Origin: Armatimonadota bacterium
Lineage (GTDB): Bacteria > Armatimonadota > Fimbriimonadia > Fimbriimonadales > Fimbriimonadaceae
Assembly (NCBI GenBank): GCA_016125185.1
Contig: WGMG01000011.1
Location: 1-64,000, forward strand
Length of the DNA: 64,000 nucleotides
Direction: 5' to 3'
In this document: positions 43,005-50,400 of the stretch, in pieces
Layout of the letters: each line of letters begins with the position of its first letter
How positions within the stretch are numbered: position 1 is the stretch's first letter
Notes under the pieces: generated by a model
Told to the model about the DNA's origin: nothing
The model's input: only the letters and a program-made list of their open reading frames with translations
Database searches by the model: none
Made by a program: the position numbers and the translations under genes

Positions 43005-45398
43005 GTGTCTAATACGGGTAGGTGTTTTATCATCGTTTTTTTTCCGGAGCGTGCTGAGAATCGAACCCCTTACAGATCTACAGCAATCGCTTTGGGTGTT
43101 CTGACCGTCGTCGTTGCGTTGTTTGTATTGGCGGGCTGGACCTTCGGAATATCGAGCTTCACCAGTGTTTTGCCCGGAATGGCGACGATGAAAGCGAATA
43201 CCGCGATCACCTTCGTTCTTCTCGGTTCTTGTCTCGTGGCGCGTGTCGTCAGTGTGTCCTCTCCAGCCATGCAGAAGGGTGGTCGTAATTTGTGCCTTGC
43301 ATTGGGTGCGGGGGCCTTCTTTCTATCTTTGCTGACGCACTTCGAAGATCTTTTTGGATGGCAGTTAGGTATCGACCAACTGATCTTCGCGGATCGAAAC
43401 TCTCCTCATGCCCTCTTTCCTGGTCGGATGTCCTCGGGAACTTCTTTATGTTTTGCCTTGGTAAGCGCCTCGCTTCTGATCGCGGAGATTTTTGGCGAAC
43501 CACGACGCTGGATTGGGGACTTGTTAGCGGTTGTGGCGGCGTGCATCAGCTTGGTGGCATTAGTGGGCTACGCCTTCGACGTCATTGCGCTTTACCAAAT
43601 GACGCTTTTCGGCTCGATGGCGCTCCACACAGCCGCCCTGCTGTTTGCCCTTTCAATTGGAGCCTTGATCACTTTGCCGCAAGAAGGGCTGATGAGGCAC
43701 CTCACCAGTCCGCTCTTTGGCGGGAGGATGGCAAGACCGATCTTCCTCATCGGCATTATCTTTATGTTCCTCATCGGACTTCTGACGAGCCGATTTGGCC
43801 GTAATGGAACCGCCCCTGGCTCGGCCCTTGCCGTTGCGACGGTGGCAAACACCGCAGCGCTTGGAGTCGTGGTTTGGTTATCGGCGGCCTGGATGAACCA
43901 ACTTGACGCCAACCGTCGGGCAACAGAAGTTGAGAATGCCAGGATTGCCGCCATGGTTAGGTCATCTGGGGCGGCGATTATCGGCAAGGACTTGGATGGC
44001 GTTATTACGAGTTGGAACGAATCGGCGGTAAAGCTCTACGGTTACACGGCACAAGAAGCTATCGGGCAGCCAATCACCCTCATCGTTCCACCGAAGATGA
44101 TGGCGGAGGTTGCTCACATCATGAGCGAAATTCGGTAGGGCCGTCCGATCCTTCACCTCAACACGGTGAGACGACGGAAGGATGGAACGCTTGTGGAAGT
44201 TTCGCTTTCTACTTCGCCTACGAGAGATGCCGATGGGAATCTGGTGGGGGCGGCGGCGGTTGCGCGCGACATCACCGATTCAAAACGCATGGAGCGCCTT
44301 AATGAGATCATCGTCGAAGCTTCACCAGCTTCCATCGTCATGGTCAATGCCGATGGAGATATTGCCCTCGTCAACAGTTCGACGATCGAAACGTTTGGAT
44401 ACCAGGGCGACGAACTGATTGGTCAGAGTGTAGACGTTCTGCTTCCCGAACCATTAATGGCCGAGCATCAGGCTCTTCGTAGGGGGTTTATGCAGCGTCC
44501 AGTTGCCCGGCAAATGGGGGCTGGTCGCGACCTCAATGCACGGCGGAAGGATGGCTCCGAGTTTCCGGTCGAGGTCGGGTTGAGCCCGGTAGAGACAGTT
44601 CAAGGCACTTTTGTTCTTTGTACCGTTATTGACATCACGCAGCGAAAAGAGGATGAAGCCACGATCCAGCAGCATGTCGCAACACTAGAGCAGTTCAACG
44701 AGGAGCTGAAGCGTTCGAACGCCGAATTGGAGCAGTTCGCCTACATCGCCTCTCATGACCTGCAAGAGCCCTTGCGGATGGTGGTGAGCTACATGGGGTT
44801 GTTCGAGTCGAGATACAAGGGCAAGCTCGACGAGCGGGCGGATAAGTACATCAATTACGCCGTGGACGGAGCCTCACGCATGCAGCAGTTGGTCAACGAC
44901 CTGCTCGCCTACTCCCGCGTGGGTTCGCAGGGGAGGCCGTTTGTCAATATTGGTGTCGATCGGGTTTTGGATCAGGTACTTCGCGGCTTGTCGGGAGCCG
45001 TTGCCGAGTCAGGGACCCAGATCAAGCGCGACCCCATGCCCGAGGTCATGGCCGACGAGTTGCAGTTGGGGCAGGTCTTTCAGAACCTGATCGGTAATTC
45101 GATCAAGTTTCGGGGAACCGAACCTCTGACCATTCATATCGGCGTGGAGGAAGACGATGCTTTTTGGACGTTTTCGGTTTCGGATAACGGCATTGGGGTC
45201 GAGCCGGCCTATGCGGAGCGAATCTTTCAAATGTTTCAGCGGCTTCACGAACGTGGCGTGTACGAAGGAAGCGGTATTGGGCTCGCGATTTCGAAGAAGA
45301 TTATCGAGCGGCACGGGGGGAAGATTTGGCTGGACGCCGAGACAAAAGACGGCGCTCAATTTCGGTTCACGCTTCCAAAGAAAAGGATGGCAGCATAA
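43005..45398 (+). pseudogene. Hybrid membrane histidine kinase, split by an in-frame TAG
   Basis: Reading from GTG 43005 to the TAA at 45396-45398 gives 797 codons in one frame, interrupted only by TAG at 44136-44138 (codon 378). The first part has about eight membrane segments (residues 25-300) and begins a PAS domain. The second completes it (GRPILHLNTVRRRKDGT), then a second PAS, HisKA with His584 in SHDLQEPLR, and an HATPase (FQNLIGNSIKF, DNGIGV, GSGIGLAI). PAS families usually have R, K or Q at the stop position (IRxGRP), so CAG or AAG to TAG is the simple explanation. GTG 44166 could restart a soluble kinase. Next gene starts at once. Confidence 0.8.
44136..44138 (+). other. In-frame amber codon inside the kinase gene
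   Basis: TAG, followed by GG, splits a PAS domain between IMSEIR and GRPILHLN. The frame before and after is the same, so no frameshift is needed. TAG is a normal stop here: many complete genes in this window end in TAG (for example at 3616, 4327, 6198, 13857 and 22063). Confidence 0.85.
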
Positions 45399-45884
45399 AT
45401 GACACATATAAAAACATTTGCCAACCGTACTGTAGAGATTTTGCTTGTCGAAGACAATCCTGGCGATGTCGACTTGGCGAGAGAGACGATGGAAGAAAGC
45501 ATCATCCCTATCTCTTTAGTCGTCGCCAAAGATGGAGTTGAAGCCATGAACTACCTTAATAAAGTGGGGCTTGCCGGGGACCGAATGCCGGACCTGGTTT
45601 TGCTTGATCTAAATCTGCCAAAAATGGATGGGCGAGCTGTGCTAGAAGCAATGCGAGCTAACGAACTGCTCTTGCTCTTGCCTGTCATCGTTCTCACCTC
45701 GTCTGATGCCGAGCAGGACATCGCTGAAAGCTACAAGAAAGGAGCGAATTGCTATGTCAAGAAGCCAGGCGACATCAATCACTTCCGGAATGTCATTCGT
45801 CAAATCGAAGAGTTCTGGTTCACGATCGTCAAACTTCCGCCGGAAAATTATCCCCCTTTTGAGTTGGGAGGCACCGTTGGCTGA
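45399..45884 (+). CDS. Rcp1-type single-domain response regulator
   Basis: A 161-residue receiver with no output domain. Acidic pocket at residues 18-19 (VEDNPGDV), phospho-acceptor Asp70 in LVLLDLNLPKMDG, conserved Thr/Ser in VIVLTSSDAEQD and Lys in YVKKPGDINHF. This is the Rcp1 type that pairs with SHDLQEPLR-type kinases such as phytochromes. It begins right after the kinase stop and overlaps the next gene by 8 bp. It probably relays phosphate from the upstream kinase. Confidence 0.9.
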   Translation: MTHIKTFANRTVEILLVEDNPGDVDLARETMEESIIPISLVVAKDGVEAMNYLNKVGLAGDRMPDLVLLDLNLPKMDGRAVLEAMRANELLLLLPVIVLTSSDAEQDIAESYKKGANCYVKKPGDINHFRNVIRQIEEFWFTIVKLPPENYPPFELGGTVG

Positions 45885-46707
45885 TTTCCTCGATACGCGG
45901 GTGCTTCTCCTGGTTGAAGACAATCCGGGCGACGCCGACCTCGTGGTCGAGCTCCTCGAAGAATCGGGCAGTCATTACAAAGTTGTGCGAGCCACGCGGA
46001 TGTCAGAGGCGGTGGACAAACTGAAGAATTCCGAGGTTGACGTTGTCCTGCTTGACCTACGTCTTCCCGATTCAAGCGGGCTGGACTCTTTGCGTGAGAT
46101 CAAGAGCGTTGCCGAGCAGATTCCAATCGTGATTCTGACCGGATTGGAGGATGAAGCACTGGCAATGGAGTGCATCAACGCCGGAGCGCAGGACTACTTG
46201 GCCAAGTCCGAATTGAAGCCGATTTCGCTCAAACGCACGATCGGTTACGCGATCACTCGACTTCGCGAGGCCCAATTGCGCGAGTTGCAGAGTCTCCTCG
46301 ACCGGTACCGAACCATGTCGACTCATGGCTCAACGACGACGGTCACTTCTGGGTTGCTGGGATCGGCTCCGGTCAAGGAGCGGCTGTCGGGAGAGTACGA
46401 CGAGTTCGTCGCTCAGTACGAGCAGCTCATGAAGGAGTACCTCGACCTTTTGATCCTGAAAAGGGAGAAGCCGCGCGAGCAAATGGAGTACATGGTGACC
46501 CGTCTCGGCGACGCTGGATCCGGTCCAAGGGACCTTATTGACGTTCACCTGGAAGCTCTTGATCGAGCTTCGCACGGTCACACCCATGAGCGCACAAGAT
46601 TTCTTATCGTTGAAGGACGGCTTCTTGCATTAGAGATGATGGGATTACTCGTGGACTACTACCGAACTGGAAGCCGAAGGCAGAGAACCTGGCAGGGACA
46701 ATTATGA
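45877..46707 (+). CDS. Chimeric receiver + KaiA/RsbU-like helical protein
   Basis: A 276-residue protein. Residues 5-125 are a receiver domain (Asp60 in [10 protein letters not shown]; Thr88; Lys110). A helix and a polar linker (130-165) lead to a helical domain (about 168-268) whose pattern matches the C-terminal dimerisation/KaiC-binding domain of Kai[21 protein letters not shown], then [14 protein letters not shown], which resembles the KaiA segment VLEIHMELMDEF, and a final [19 protein letters not shown], like the KaiA YRLTLIDVIAHL-CEMYRR end. RsbU N-terminal domains share this fold. Start is TTG 45877 with GGGAGG six bases upstream. The stop overlaps kaiB by 4 bp. It may be a KaiA3-like activator; the alternative is an RsbU-type adapter. 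Confidence 0.72.
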
Positions 46708-46985
46708 AATACAGACTAAGACTCTATATCACTGGGCGTACGATTAACTCGCAGACGGCTATCGATAATTTGAGGCAAATTTGCGAGACGGACCTCAAGG
46801 GTAACTATAGAATTGAGGTCATCGACGTATTGGAACATCCGCTACTGGCGGAAGACGAGAAGATTCTTGCAACACCTACTCTGGTTAAACAATTGCCGGA
46901 GCCGGTGCGCAAAATCATTGGCGATCTCAGCGACAGGGAAAAGGTTTTGTTGGGTTTAGATTTAATTAGCTCGACGATCAATTAA
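46704..46985 (+). CDS. kaiB: KaiB clock protein
   Basis: A 93-residue thioredoxin-like-fold protein. KaiB signatures are strong: LRLYITGRT at the N-terminus, [51 protein letters not shown] through the C-terminal half. KaiB binds phosphorylated KaiC after switching to its thioredoxin-like fold and, in cyanobacteria, sequesters KaiA to close the daily cycle. Its ATG overlaps the stop of the KaiA-like gene (ATGA), and kaiC starts 14 bp after its stop. Confidence 0.96.
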
Positions 46986-46999
46986 GAAAGGCTCAAAAC

Positions 47000-48535
47000 A
47001 TGAATAGTGCATCAACAAGATATGACTTGCCAAGGCTCATAACGGGCATTCCTGGTTTCGACCAAATAACGAATGGTGGACTGCCAGAAGGACGATCAAC
47101 ACTTATCGCTGGAACGGCGGGAAGCGGAAAGACCGTCTTTGCAATTCAGTTCCTCCTGATTGGAATTCGCGACTTTGACCAACCTGGCGTCTTCGTCACC
47201 TTTGAAGAAGCCCCAGTCGACCTGGTTCAGAATGTTCGGTCGTTCGGGTGGAATCTGGATGAACTCATCAAGCAGAAGAAGTTCGCGATCGTCGACGCGA
47301 CCCCGGAGCCAGGTGAGGAAACGCTTCAGACGGGCAACTTTGATCTAGCTGCTCTGATGGCTCGAATCGAGCATGCGATCCGCGAAGTTGGAGCAAAGAG
47401 AGTGGTGCTTGACGCGGTCGGTGCGTTGTTCCCCCAATTCAGCGATTCGAACCTGATTCGTCGTGAACTTCATCGAATCGCCGGTGGACTCCGCAAGCTA
47501 AAGATGACCACGATGATTACCATGGAGCGAACGGAGGAAGATGGCCCTGTCGGCCGGTTCGGTGTCGAGGAGTTTGTAGCCGATAACGTCATCCTTTCTC
47601 GCAACCGTCTTGAGCATGAAAAGCGCCGTCGAACGCTGGAGGTTCTGAAGTTCCGCGGCGCGATCCACCAAAAAGGCGAATATCCGTTCACGATCGATCA
47701 AAAGGATGGCGTCACCATCATTCCGCTTTCGGCCACCGAGCTTAAGCAAAAGTCTTCGGACATTCGAGTGTCTTCGGGTGTGCCGGAACTAGACCGGATG
47801 TGCGGAGGCGGCATGTACCGCGACTCCATCATTCTAGTCAGCGGCGCGACCGGTACAGGCAAGACTCTGACCGTGACCCAGTATGTGAAGGCGGCCATCG
47901 AGGCCAACGAACGAGCCTTGCTTTTCGCGGCAGAAGAGAGCCGCGAGCAGTTGACGCGAAACGCCACTTCGTGGGGCGTGGATTTTGAAAAGGCCCAGCA
48001 GGATGGGCTCCTGCGCATCGTGGCTCGATATCCGGAAGTCATGGGCCTGGAAGATCACCTTCTGCAGATTCGACGGGATATCGAAGAGTTCAAGCCTCAC
48101 CGGGTTGCGGTTGACAGTATGTCGGCTTTCGAGCGAGTCTCGTCCATGAAGTCGTTCCGTGAGTTCGTCATCGGTCTGACGGGGCACATCAAACAGTTGG
48201 AGATTACGGGGCTTTTCACCAATACGACCTCGATGTTGATCGGCGGCGAATCGATTACGGAGACCCACATCTCGACAATTACCGACACGATCATCCTCCT
48301 GCGATACGTGGAACTCCAAGGTGAGATGCGTCGAGGTCTGACGGTCCTCAAGATGCGGGGAACCTGGCACGAAAAGAACATTCGAGAATACGTGATCGAT
48401 GGCGACGGAATGCACATCAAAGACGCCTTCCAGGGTGTCAACGGCATCATCAGCGGGACGCCGACTTACAGCTATCGCGACGAGCGTCAGCACTTGGCGA
48501 CTATGTTCCCGCCGGAAGGAAGCGATGTGCCGTGA
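47000..48535 (+). CDS. kaiC: KaiC clock ATPase/autokinase
   Basis: A 511-residue double RecA-type ATPase, close to the 519 of Synechococcus. CI: Walker A GTAGSGKT (38-45), catalytic Glu69-Glu70 (TFEEAP). CII: Walker A GATGTGKT (282-289), Glu312-Glu313 (AAEESREQL). The phosphorylation segment SITETHIST keeps Thr420, Ser425 and Thr426, matching T426/S431/T432 of Synechococcus. The A-loop-type segment IISGTPT lies at 483-489. KaiC hexamers phosphorylate and dephosphorylate themselves, paced by CI ATPase. Shine-Dalgarno AAGAAAGG precedes the ATG. Its stop overlaps the next GTG by 4 bp. Confidence 0.96.
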   Translation: MNSASTRYDLPRLITGIPGFDQITNGGLPEGRSTLIAGTAGSGKTVFAIQFLLIGIRDFDQPGVFVTFEEAPVDLVQNVRSFGWNLDELIKQKKFAIVDATPEPGEETLQTGNFDLAALMARIEHAIREVGAKRVVLDAVGALFPQFSDSNLIRRELHRIAGGLRKLKMTTMITMERTEEDGPVGRFGVEEFVADNVILSRNRLEHEKRRRTLEVLKFRGAIHQKGEYPFTIDQKDGVTIIPLSATELKQKSSDIRVSSGVPELDRMCGGGMYRDSIILVSGATGTGKTLTVTQYVKAAIEANERALLFAAEESREQLTRNATSWGVDFEKAQQDGLLRIVARYPEVMGLEDHLLQIRRDIEEFKPHRVAVDSMSAFERVSSMKSFREFVIGLTGHIKQLEITGLFTNTTSMLIGGESITETHISTITDTIILLRYVELQGEMRRGLTVLKMRGTWHEKNIREYVIDGDGMHIKDAFQGVNGIISGTPTYSYRDERQHLATMFPPEGSDVP

Positions 48536-50400
48536 TCTCGTCTTCCGTTTATCGAGTGCTCCTGGTCGAGGATAATCCAGGAGATGCGGACCTCGCTCGC
48601 GAGGGGCTGGCCGACATCACAAGTTGCTCGTTTGAGACTCGCCATGTCGTCAGCCTTCGTGATGCGCTTCAGGCCCTGAGTAAGGAGAAGGTCGATGCCG
48701 TCGTGCTCGATCTGAACCTTCCCGATTCTCAGGGTTTGGAAACTTTGCGCGCCATTCAGCGTCATGGTGAGGACTCGGCGATCGTCGTTCTTTCCGGTGC
48801 TGCCACCCACGACATGGTGATCGAAACCTTGCGGACGGGAGCCATGGACTTTGTCGATAAGAATGCGGCACCCGCCCAACTGATCGGGCGTGCTGTGGTT
48901 AGTGCGCTCCGGCGAAATGAGGCGTTTGAGCTGCATCGACAAACAGAACGACTGGTCTCGGTCAACCCAGACGCAATGCTGGTTGTCGACTCCAAGAATG
49001 TTGTTCAATTTGTCAACGAAGCCGCCTTGACGCTCTTCGGAAAAGAACGGCATGAACTTGTGGGGCAAACACTGTTCTTCTCGGTGCGGGAAGGGCGGAC
49101 AACGGAGATCGAGGTTATTTCGAAGCGGGAGACACGGTTCGGAGAAATGAACGTGGTCGATATTTCCTGGAACGGTGCTCCGGCGATTTTGGCGAGTGTT
49201 CGCGATGTGACCCGACAAAGAATTCTCACCTCTCAGCTCCAGCAGTCGCAAAAGCTTCAGGCGCTCGGCACGCTTGCTGCCGGCATTGCCCACGATCTCA
49301 ACAATATTCTGAACGTCGTGGTTGGCAACGCCCAACTAGCCAAGATGCAATCCGATATGGGGCAGAGCACGGAAGACACGATCGCCAGCGTCGTCGACGC
49401 GGGCAACAAAGGGCGGGAATTTGTAAGCCGAATTCTGGACTTTACGCGAAAGCGGCAATCCAGCCTTGGAGCGGTCGATCTTGAAGCGACAGTGAACGAA
49501 GTGGCCAATCTCGTTCGCACGGGTGTGCCGTTGGCGGTCAAGCTGAATGTGCGGTGTGAAGAGAAGTTGCCCAAGATTTACGCTGATCCAGTGCAGATTA
49601 ATCAGGTTATTTTGAATTTGTGTTCGAATGCGGTTCAAGCGATTGGGGATGCTCCGGGGCAGGTCGATTTGGTTTGTGAATTGGTTTCGATGGGGGCCGA
49701 AGAGCGTTCTGAGCTTTTTGGCGTCTCCGAGGGTCCGTTGGTGCGGCTGACGGTCAAGGATACGGGCGCCGGAATGAGCAAGGAAGTTCAGGAGCAGATT
49801 TTTAATCCATTCTTTACGACCAAGGTGCAGGGGCGCGGGACTGGACTTGGGTTGGCGATCGTTCACAACATCATGGAAAATCATGGTGGGGCGATTACGG
49901 TGCAGAGCGAGCTTGGTAAAGGCACCGCCTTCAAGCTGTATTTCCGGCTGGTGACCGACCTGGCCGATCTCGATACAATCGAGGGCCGGTCGATGCCGAT
50001 GGGCACGGCACAGAGAGTCGTTTATGTGGACGATGATGAAGCCCTTGCCCGAATCGTGCGGAATCAACTGCGGTTGCTCGGATACGAAATCATGGCGTTT
50101 ACCAACTCTCAAGACTGCCTGGACTATGTTCGAGTCAAGAACGACGAGGTGGACCTTCTGATTGCAGACTATTCAATGCCGTATCTCGACGGTATTTCGT
50201 TGATTCGCGAGGTGCTGTTGGTTCGACCGGACCTTCCGGCCGTTTTGGCGTCTAGCGTGGTTCGACCCGAGGATATTGAAGCTGCCAAGGAAGTCGGCGC
50301 CATTGATTGCGTGTGTAAGCCATTCACGATTGAAGAAATGGCGGATAGCATGGCAAAAATATTTGAATTGGTTGAAGCTAGAAATGCCGTTCGGGGCTAA
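48532..50400 (+). CDS. REC-PAS-histidine kinase-REC hybrid protein
   Basis: A 622-residue soluble protein. N-terminal receiver (1-125, Asp60), PAS (about 138-235), HisKA with His254 in GIAHDLNNIL, HATPase (N box LNLCSNAVQA, DTGAGM, GTGLGLAI) and a C-terminal receiver (495-615, Asp546). This NtrB-like H box differs from the SHDLQEPLR type of the upstream kinase, so it is a separate phosphorelay. Start GTG 48532 overlaps the kaiC stop (GTGA). It is the last gene of the Kai operon and a likely output or input kinase of the KaiC timer, as SasA and CikA are in cyanobacteria. Its end overlaps the convergent VOC gene. Confidence 0.9.
   Translation: MISSSVYRVLLVEDNPGDADLAREGLADITSCSFETRHVVSLRDALQALSKEKVDAVVLDLNLPDSQGLETLRAIQRHGEDSAIVVLSGAATHDMVIETLRTGAMDFVDKNAAPAQLIGRAVVSALRRNEAFELHRQTERLVSVNPDAMLVVDSKNVVQFVNEAALTLFGKERHELVGQTLFFSVREGRTTEIEVISKRETRFGEMNVVDISWNGAPAILASVRDVTRQRILTSQLQQSQKLQALGTLAAGIAHDLNNILNVVVGNAQLAKMQSDMGQSTEDTIASVVDAGNKGREFVSRILDFTRKRQSSLGAVDLEATVNEVANLVRTGVPLAVKLNVRCEEKLPKIYADPVQINQVILNLCSNAVQAIGDAPGQVDLVCELVSMGAEERSELFGVSEGPLVRLTVKDTGAGMSKEVQEQIFNPFFTTKVQGRGTGLGLAIVHNIMENHGGAITVQSELGKGTAFKLYFRLVTDLADLDTIEGRSMPMGTAQRVVYVDDDEALARIVRNQLRLLGYEIMAFTNSQDCLDYVRVKNDEVDLLIADYSMPYLDGISLIREVLLVRPDLPAVLASSVVRPEDIEAAKEVGAIDCVCKPFTIEEMADSMAKIFELVEARNAVRG

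Follow-up and report, generated by a model that had tools for sequence, protein, structure and literature searches.

Layout of the kai operon and its interrupted kinase gene

Analysis of the window (the whole stretch of 64,000 nucleotides from a bacterium of the phylum Armatimonadota) revealed a kai operon headed by a sensor histidine kinase gene that is split by an in-frame TAG. The features of the operon and their positions in the window are shown in Table 1.

Table 1. Features identified in the kai operon and in its interrupted kinase gene (positions in the window).
Feature	Position	Strand	Remarks
N-terminal part of the kinase, 377 aa	43005..44138	+	Eight hydrophobic segments and first half of PAS1
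In-frame TAG stop	44136..44138	+	Falls in PAS1, at codon 378 of the read-through frame
C-terminal part of the kinase, open frame of 419 aa	44139..45398	+	Remainder of PAS1, PAS2, HisKA, HATPase_c
Single-domain response regulator	45399..45884	+	Start directly after the kinase stop (TAA, then ATG)
Response regulator with a probable KaiA-like C-terminal four-helix domain (KaiA3-like)	45880..46707	+	Start codon uncertain
kaiB	46704..46985	+	NCBIfam
kaiC, with HISTITD motif	47000..48535	+	NCBIfam
Second histidine kinase, intact (RR-PAS-HisKA-HATPase-RR)	48532..50400	+	

The kinase frame opens with GTG at 43005 and the TAG closes the ORF 43005-44138; this codon is the sole break in a frame of 797 codons (43005-45398). 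The read-through kinase of 797 aa carries a PAS domain at residues 313-423 (PAS1), a second PAS domain (PAS2), HisKA at 575-641 and HATPase_c at 684-793. Eight hydrophobic segments (an 8-TM sensor) precede PAS1, and this input domain is without a match in any Pfam family. Comparison of PAS1 with the closest PAS domain fetched, that of locus L052 from the same genus, revealed an alignment that runs without gaps over the TAG, where the residue of L052 is arginine. With one lesion and gapless PAS homology across it, substitution of a single base suffices to account for the interruption.

These results confirm the claim of the initial annotation that a single in-frame TAG splits a sensor kinase, the frame being open from 44139 to 45398 with PAS homology on both sides, and they support its view that one base change explains the break, residues being neither lost nor gained. 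The position of the kinase at the head of a Kai operon is likewise confirmed, as kaiB and kaiC both pass NCBIfam cut-offs. KaiB is over the cut-off of NF006798 and below that of TIGR02654, while KaiC, with a double KaiC ATPase domain, passes both its NCBIfam models (679 bits on TIGR02655, cut-off 546). KaiB occurs sporadically in the phylum, with 14 of the 291 genomes exceeding the cut-off, and no relevant paper linking Armatimonadetes with KaiC turned up in a text search.

A whole-genome search with PAS_9 gave 26 matches, among which an internal stop was found only in the match at 43977-44279. Read across its stop, this match has the best E-value of the 26 (9.5e-16); by this measure the domain is without decay, which fits a young event. 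None of the 34 HATPase_c matches in the genome contains an internal stop, so that within these two families no further in-frame TAG was found in the 25 other PAS_9 and 34 HATPase_c matches. The proposal that the other domains are intact and the event young is thus supported by the conserved domains flanking the single lesion. A sample of 461 kb from the same genome was also scanned for interrupted genes by coding score; the 17 same-frame candidates were judged by eye to be normal neighbouring genes and none to be interrupted, with a filter that failed to list the TAG at 44136-44138 itself and can therefore miss similar cases.

Searches for relatives of the kinase found no ortholog among 291 genomes of the phylum, where the one match, to the N-terminal sensor part, is distant (31%). 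Among 61 genomes (its own and those of relatives) partial matches or paralogs were found besides the kinase itself, and a search of genome contigs gave weak relatives of 23-26% identity. Plasmid sequences gave kinase matches of up to 44.5%, none of which covers the sensor part, and the viral contigs searched gave no match.

A KaiA-like neighbour directly upstream of kaiB

The neighbour of kaiB is more interesting than the stop. The stop itself is ordinary and is of mild interest in that the gene it interrupts likely encodes the input kinase of the kai operon. The protein encoded at 45880-46707, directly upstream of kaiB, contains an N-terminal receiver domain (PF00072, E 1.9e-23) followed by a C-terminal domain without sequence match in Pfam or the PDB. 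KaiA_C and RsbU_N were considered for this domain and set aside, as neither gave a Pfam match. Modelled alone, the domain is predicted to form a four-helix structure (pLDDT 85.9). The best Foldseek matches of the model in the PDB are KaiA C-terminal domains, with weak E-values of 0.05-0.3, and its TM score against 1v2z is 0.67. Its Z-score is 11.3 to a KaiA C-terminal domain, compared with 9.2 to RsbR and about 8.7 to globins. Since the E-values are weak and RsbR and globins also score, the fold alone is no proof of kinship with KaiA. Fold and place beside kaiB together suggest that the domain likely resembles KaiA, and that the genes likely form a kaiA3-kaiB-kaiC operon outside Cyanobacteria, in which the regulator may act as KaiA. 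With an apparently KaiA-like regulator next to kaiBC, the presence of a complete KaiABC oscillator in the phylum becomes testable.

A profile built from the C-terminal domain found seven genomes in the phylum with a strong match, four of which also have KaiB over the cut-off. The probability of this co-occurrence by chance is about 1e-4 if the genomes are taken as independent, which related genomes are not. In three genomes, the present one, G214 and G249, the gene with the KaiA-like domain lies directly upstream of kaiB. Four other proteins with the domain were read, and in these it is preceded by different N-terminal parts.

Several arrangements of the domain were observed in these relatives. 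At L116 (8781-10166) and L117 (9671-11677), from two other genomes of the phylum, the KaiA-like domain lies beside kaiB and other N-terminal parts replace the receiver. Three genomes of one genus (L121, L122 and L123) have the KaiA-like domain and no KaiB match; in the proteins of L121 and L123 the domain likewise follows other N-terminal parts.

Explanations of the in-frame stop

We consider an ordinary recent nonsense mutation, in which one substitution changed a sense codon of PAS1 to TAG, to be the probable explanation of the stop (probability about 0.7). Among the 7173 possible substitutions in the kinase frame 239 give a stop, and nonsense events of this kind are hence ordinary. One recent base substitution would have turned the PAS1 codon into TAG, and RF1 would terminate there, giving a membrane stub of 377 aa with half a PAS domain. 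The kinase half (PAS2-HisKA-HATPase) would then be either unmade or made in some amount by downstream re-initiation, and the re-initiated product would be a soluble kinase severed from its sensor. The downstream Kai genes are intact, and loss of the first kinase may be tolerated because the operon retains a second, intact histidine kinase. As the start of the response regulator adjoins the kinase stop, lost translation could also lower the expression of this regulator.

The main rival to a young nonsense mutation is an assembly error: the consensus would carry a wrong base, or that of a minority variant, at the TAG, and the kinase of the organism would be intact. A lone substitution in a well-conserved gene looks identical in either case, and the lack of decay in PAS1 read through the stop is as expected from such an error. 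The genome shows no general sign of base errors, however, since no other interrupted domain was found among the 60 PAS and HATPase matches, and it is assembled in 13 contigs with a contamination value of 0.08, figures with which a single error is still compatible. We regard an assembly error as unlikely.

It is also conceivable that the stop is kept, the locus giving either its membrane half and a soluble kinase as separate proteins or, by limited readthrough, short and full-length forms; we consider this quite unlikely. If true, a kept split would uncouple the first kinase of the Kai operon from its sensor. A locus that now consists of two genes, with a membrane stub followed by a soluble kinase that is made from a downstream start and maintained by selection, is very unlikely in our judgement. 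Every kinase domain downstream of the TAG is intact, and several in-frame starts occur within 160 nt of it. The candidates include GTG 44166, GTG 44193 and ATG 44289, the last at the PAS1-PAS2 junction, and restart at any of them would yield a soluble PAS2-HisKA-HATPase kinase. The initial annotation had offered restart at GTG 44166 as one option; this codon has no Shine-Dalgarno-like match upstream, whereas GTG 44193 is preceded by AAGGA at a distance of 10 nt, and GTG 44166 is not the favoured site of a restart. The AAGGA may nevertheless be incidental because its bases fall in the codons of a conserved R-K-D-G motif. Analysis of 276 genes, each at least 600 bases long, sampled from the same genome, using the starts of the longest ORFs, revealed Shine-Dalgarno-like matches about as often as at random positions, hardly above background, which makes the start-site test weak either way. 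A maintained division into two genes is further disfavoured by the position of the TAG, which lies inside the PAS fold and away from a domain border, and by the searches of relatives, as no split arrangement was found in the 291 genomes of the phylum or in the 61-genome search.

Programmed or suppressor-driven readthrough of the TAG, giving some full-length kinase, had also been proposed. The frame does continue past the stop and a hairpin can form directly after it, and yet the genome gave no sign of such decoding. TAG is the commonest stop in the 461-kb sample (155 of 390 called genes), and both release factors are encoded, one with a PAT motif and one with an SPF motif, which we take to mark RF1 and RF2, respectively. 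Reassignment of TAG was rejected on this stop usage and the presence of RF1. The search for suppressor tRNA genes that the initial annotation had called for was run on the genome and revealed no CUA anticodon among the 46 readable anticodons of 47 tRNA matches; the remaining match, of 30 bits, is also without CUA and was not called by ARAGORN, and a suppressor tRNA was rejected accordingly. This tRNA-like stretch (L075 9910-9979; G000:C5:62909-62978) is perhaps a tRNA remnant. An RNA readthrough signal was rejected as well, the fold z-scores of -1.1 for the stretch downstream of the TAG and -2.0 across it being within the spread of the operon, where 5% and 16%, respectively, of windows of equal size fold at least as well. 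With RNA structure thus ordinary and no second stop-interrupted PAS or kinase domain found among the PAS and HATPase matches, readthrough is not supported and we consider it highly improbable.

Comparison with known systems

The lesion resembles those of young bacterial pseudogenes that arise by nonsense mutation, with the same single stop, no other lesion and in-frame homology on both sides; no difference from these was found. In domain content and order the kinase agrees with PAS-PAS sensor histidine kinases (TIGR00229 sensory_box with HisKA and HATPase_c) and differs from them in being split by a TAG and in having an 8-TM input domain without a Pfam family.

KaiA3 of Synechocystis (Sll0485) consists of a receiver and a KaiA-like C-terminal helical domain, and its gene lies directly upstream of kaiB; the paper describing it names five genera outside Cyanobacteria (PMC11372060). 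The protein encoded at 45880-46707 has the receiver and the place directly upstream of kaiB in common with KaiA3, and its predicted helical C-terminal domain may be KaiA-like. It differs in that its host phylum lies outside Cyanobacteria, and the likeness drawn here is one of layout and fold. A histidine kinase encoded with kaiBC has been mentioned for Rhodobacter sphaeroides (PMC5520375), and there, too, genes for a kinase, KaiB and KaiC share one operon, a likeness drawn from its description. Unlike the arrangement in Rhodobacter sphaeroides, the kinase gene in the present operon is interrupted, and the operon also contains a probable KaiA-like regulator.
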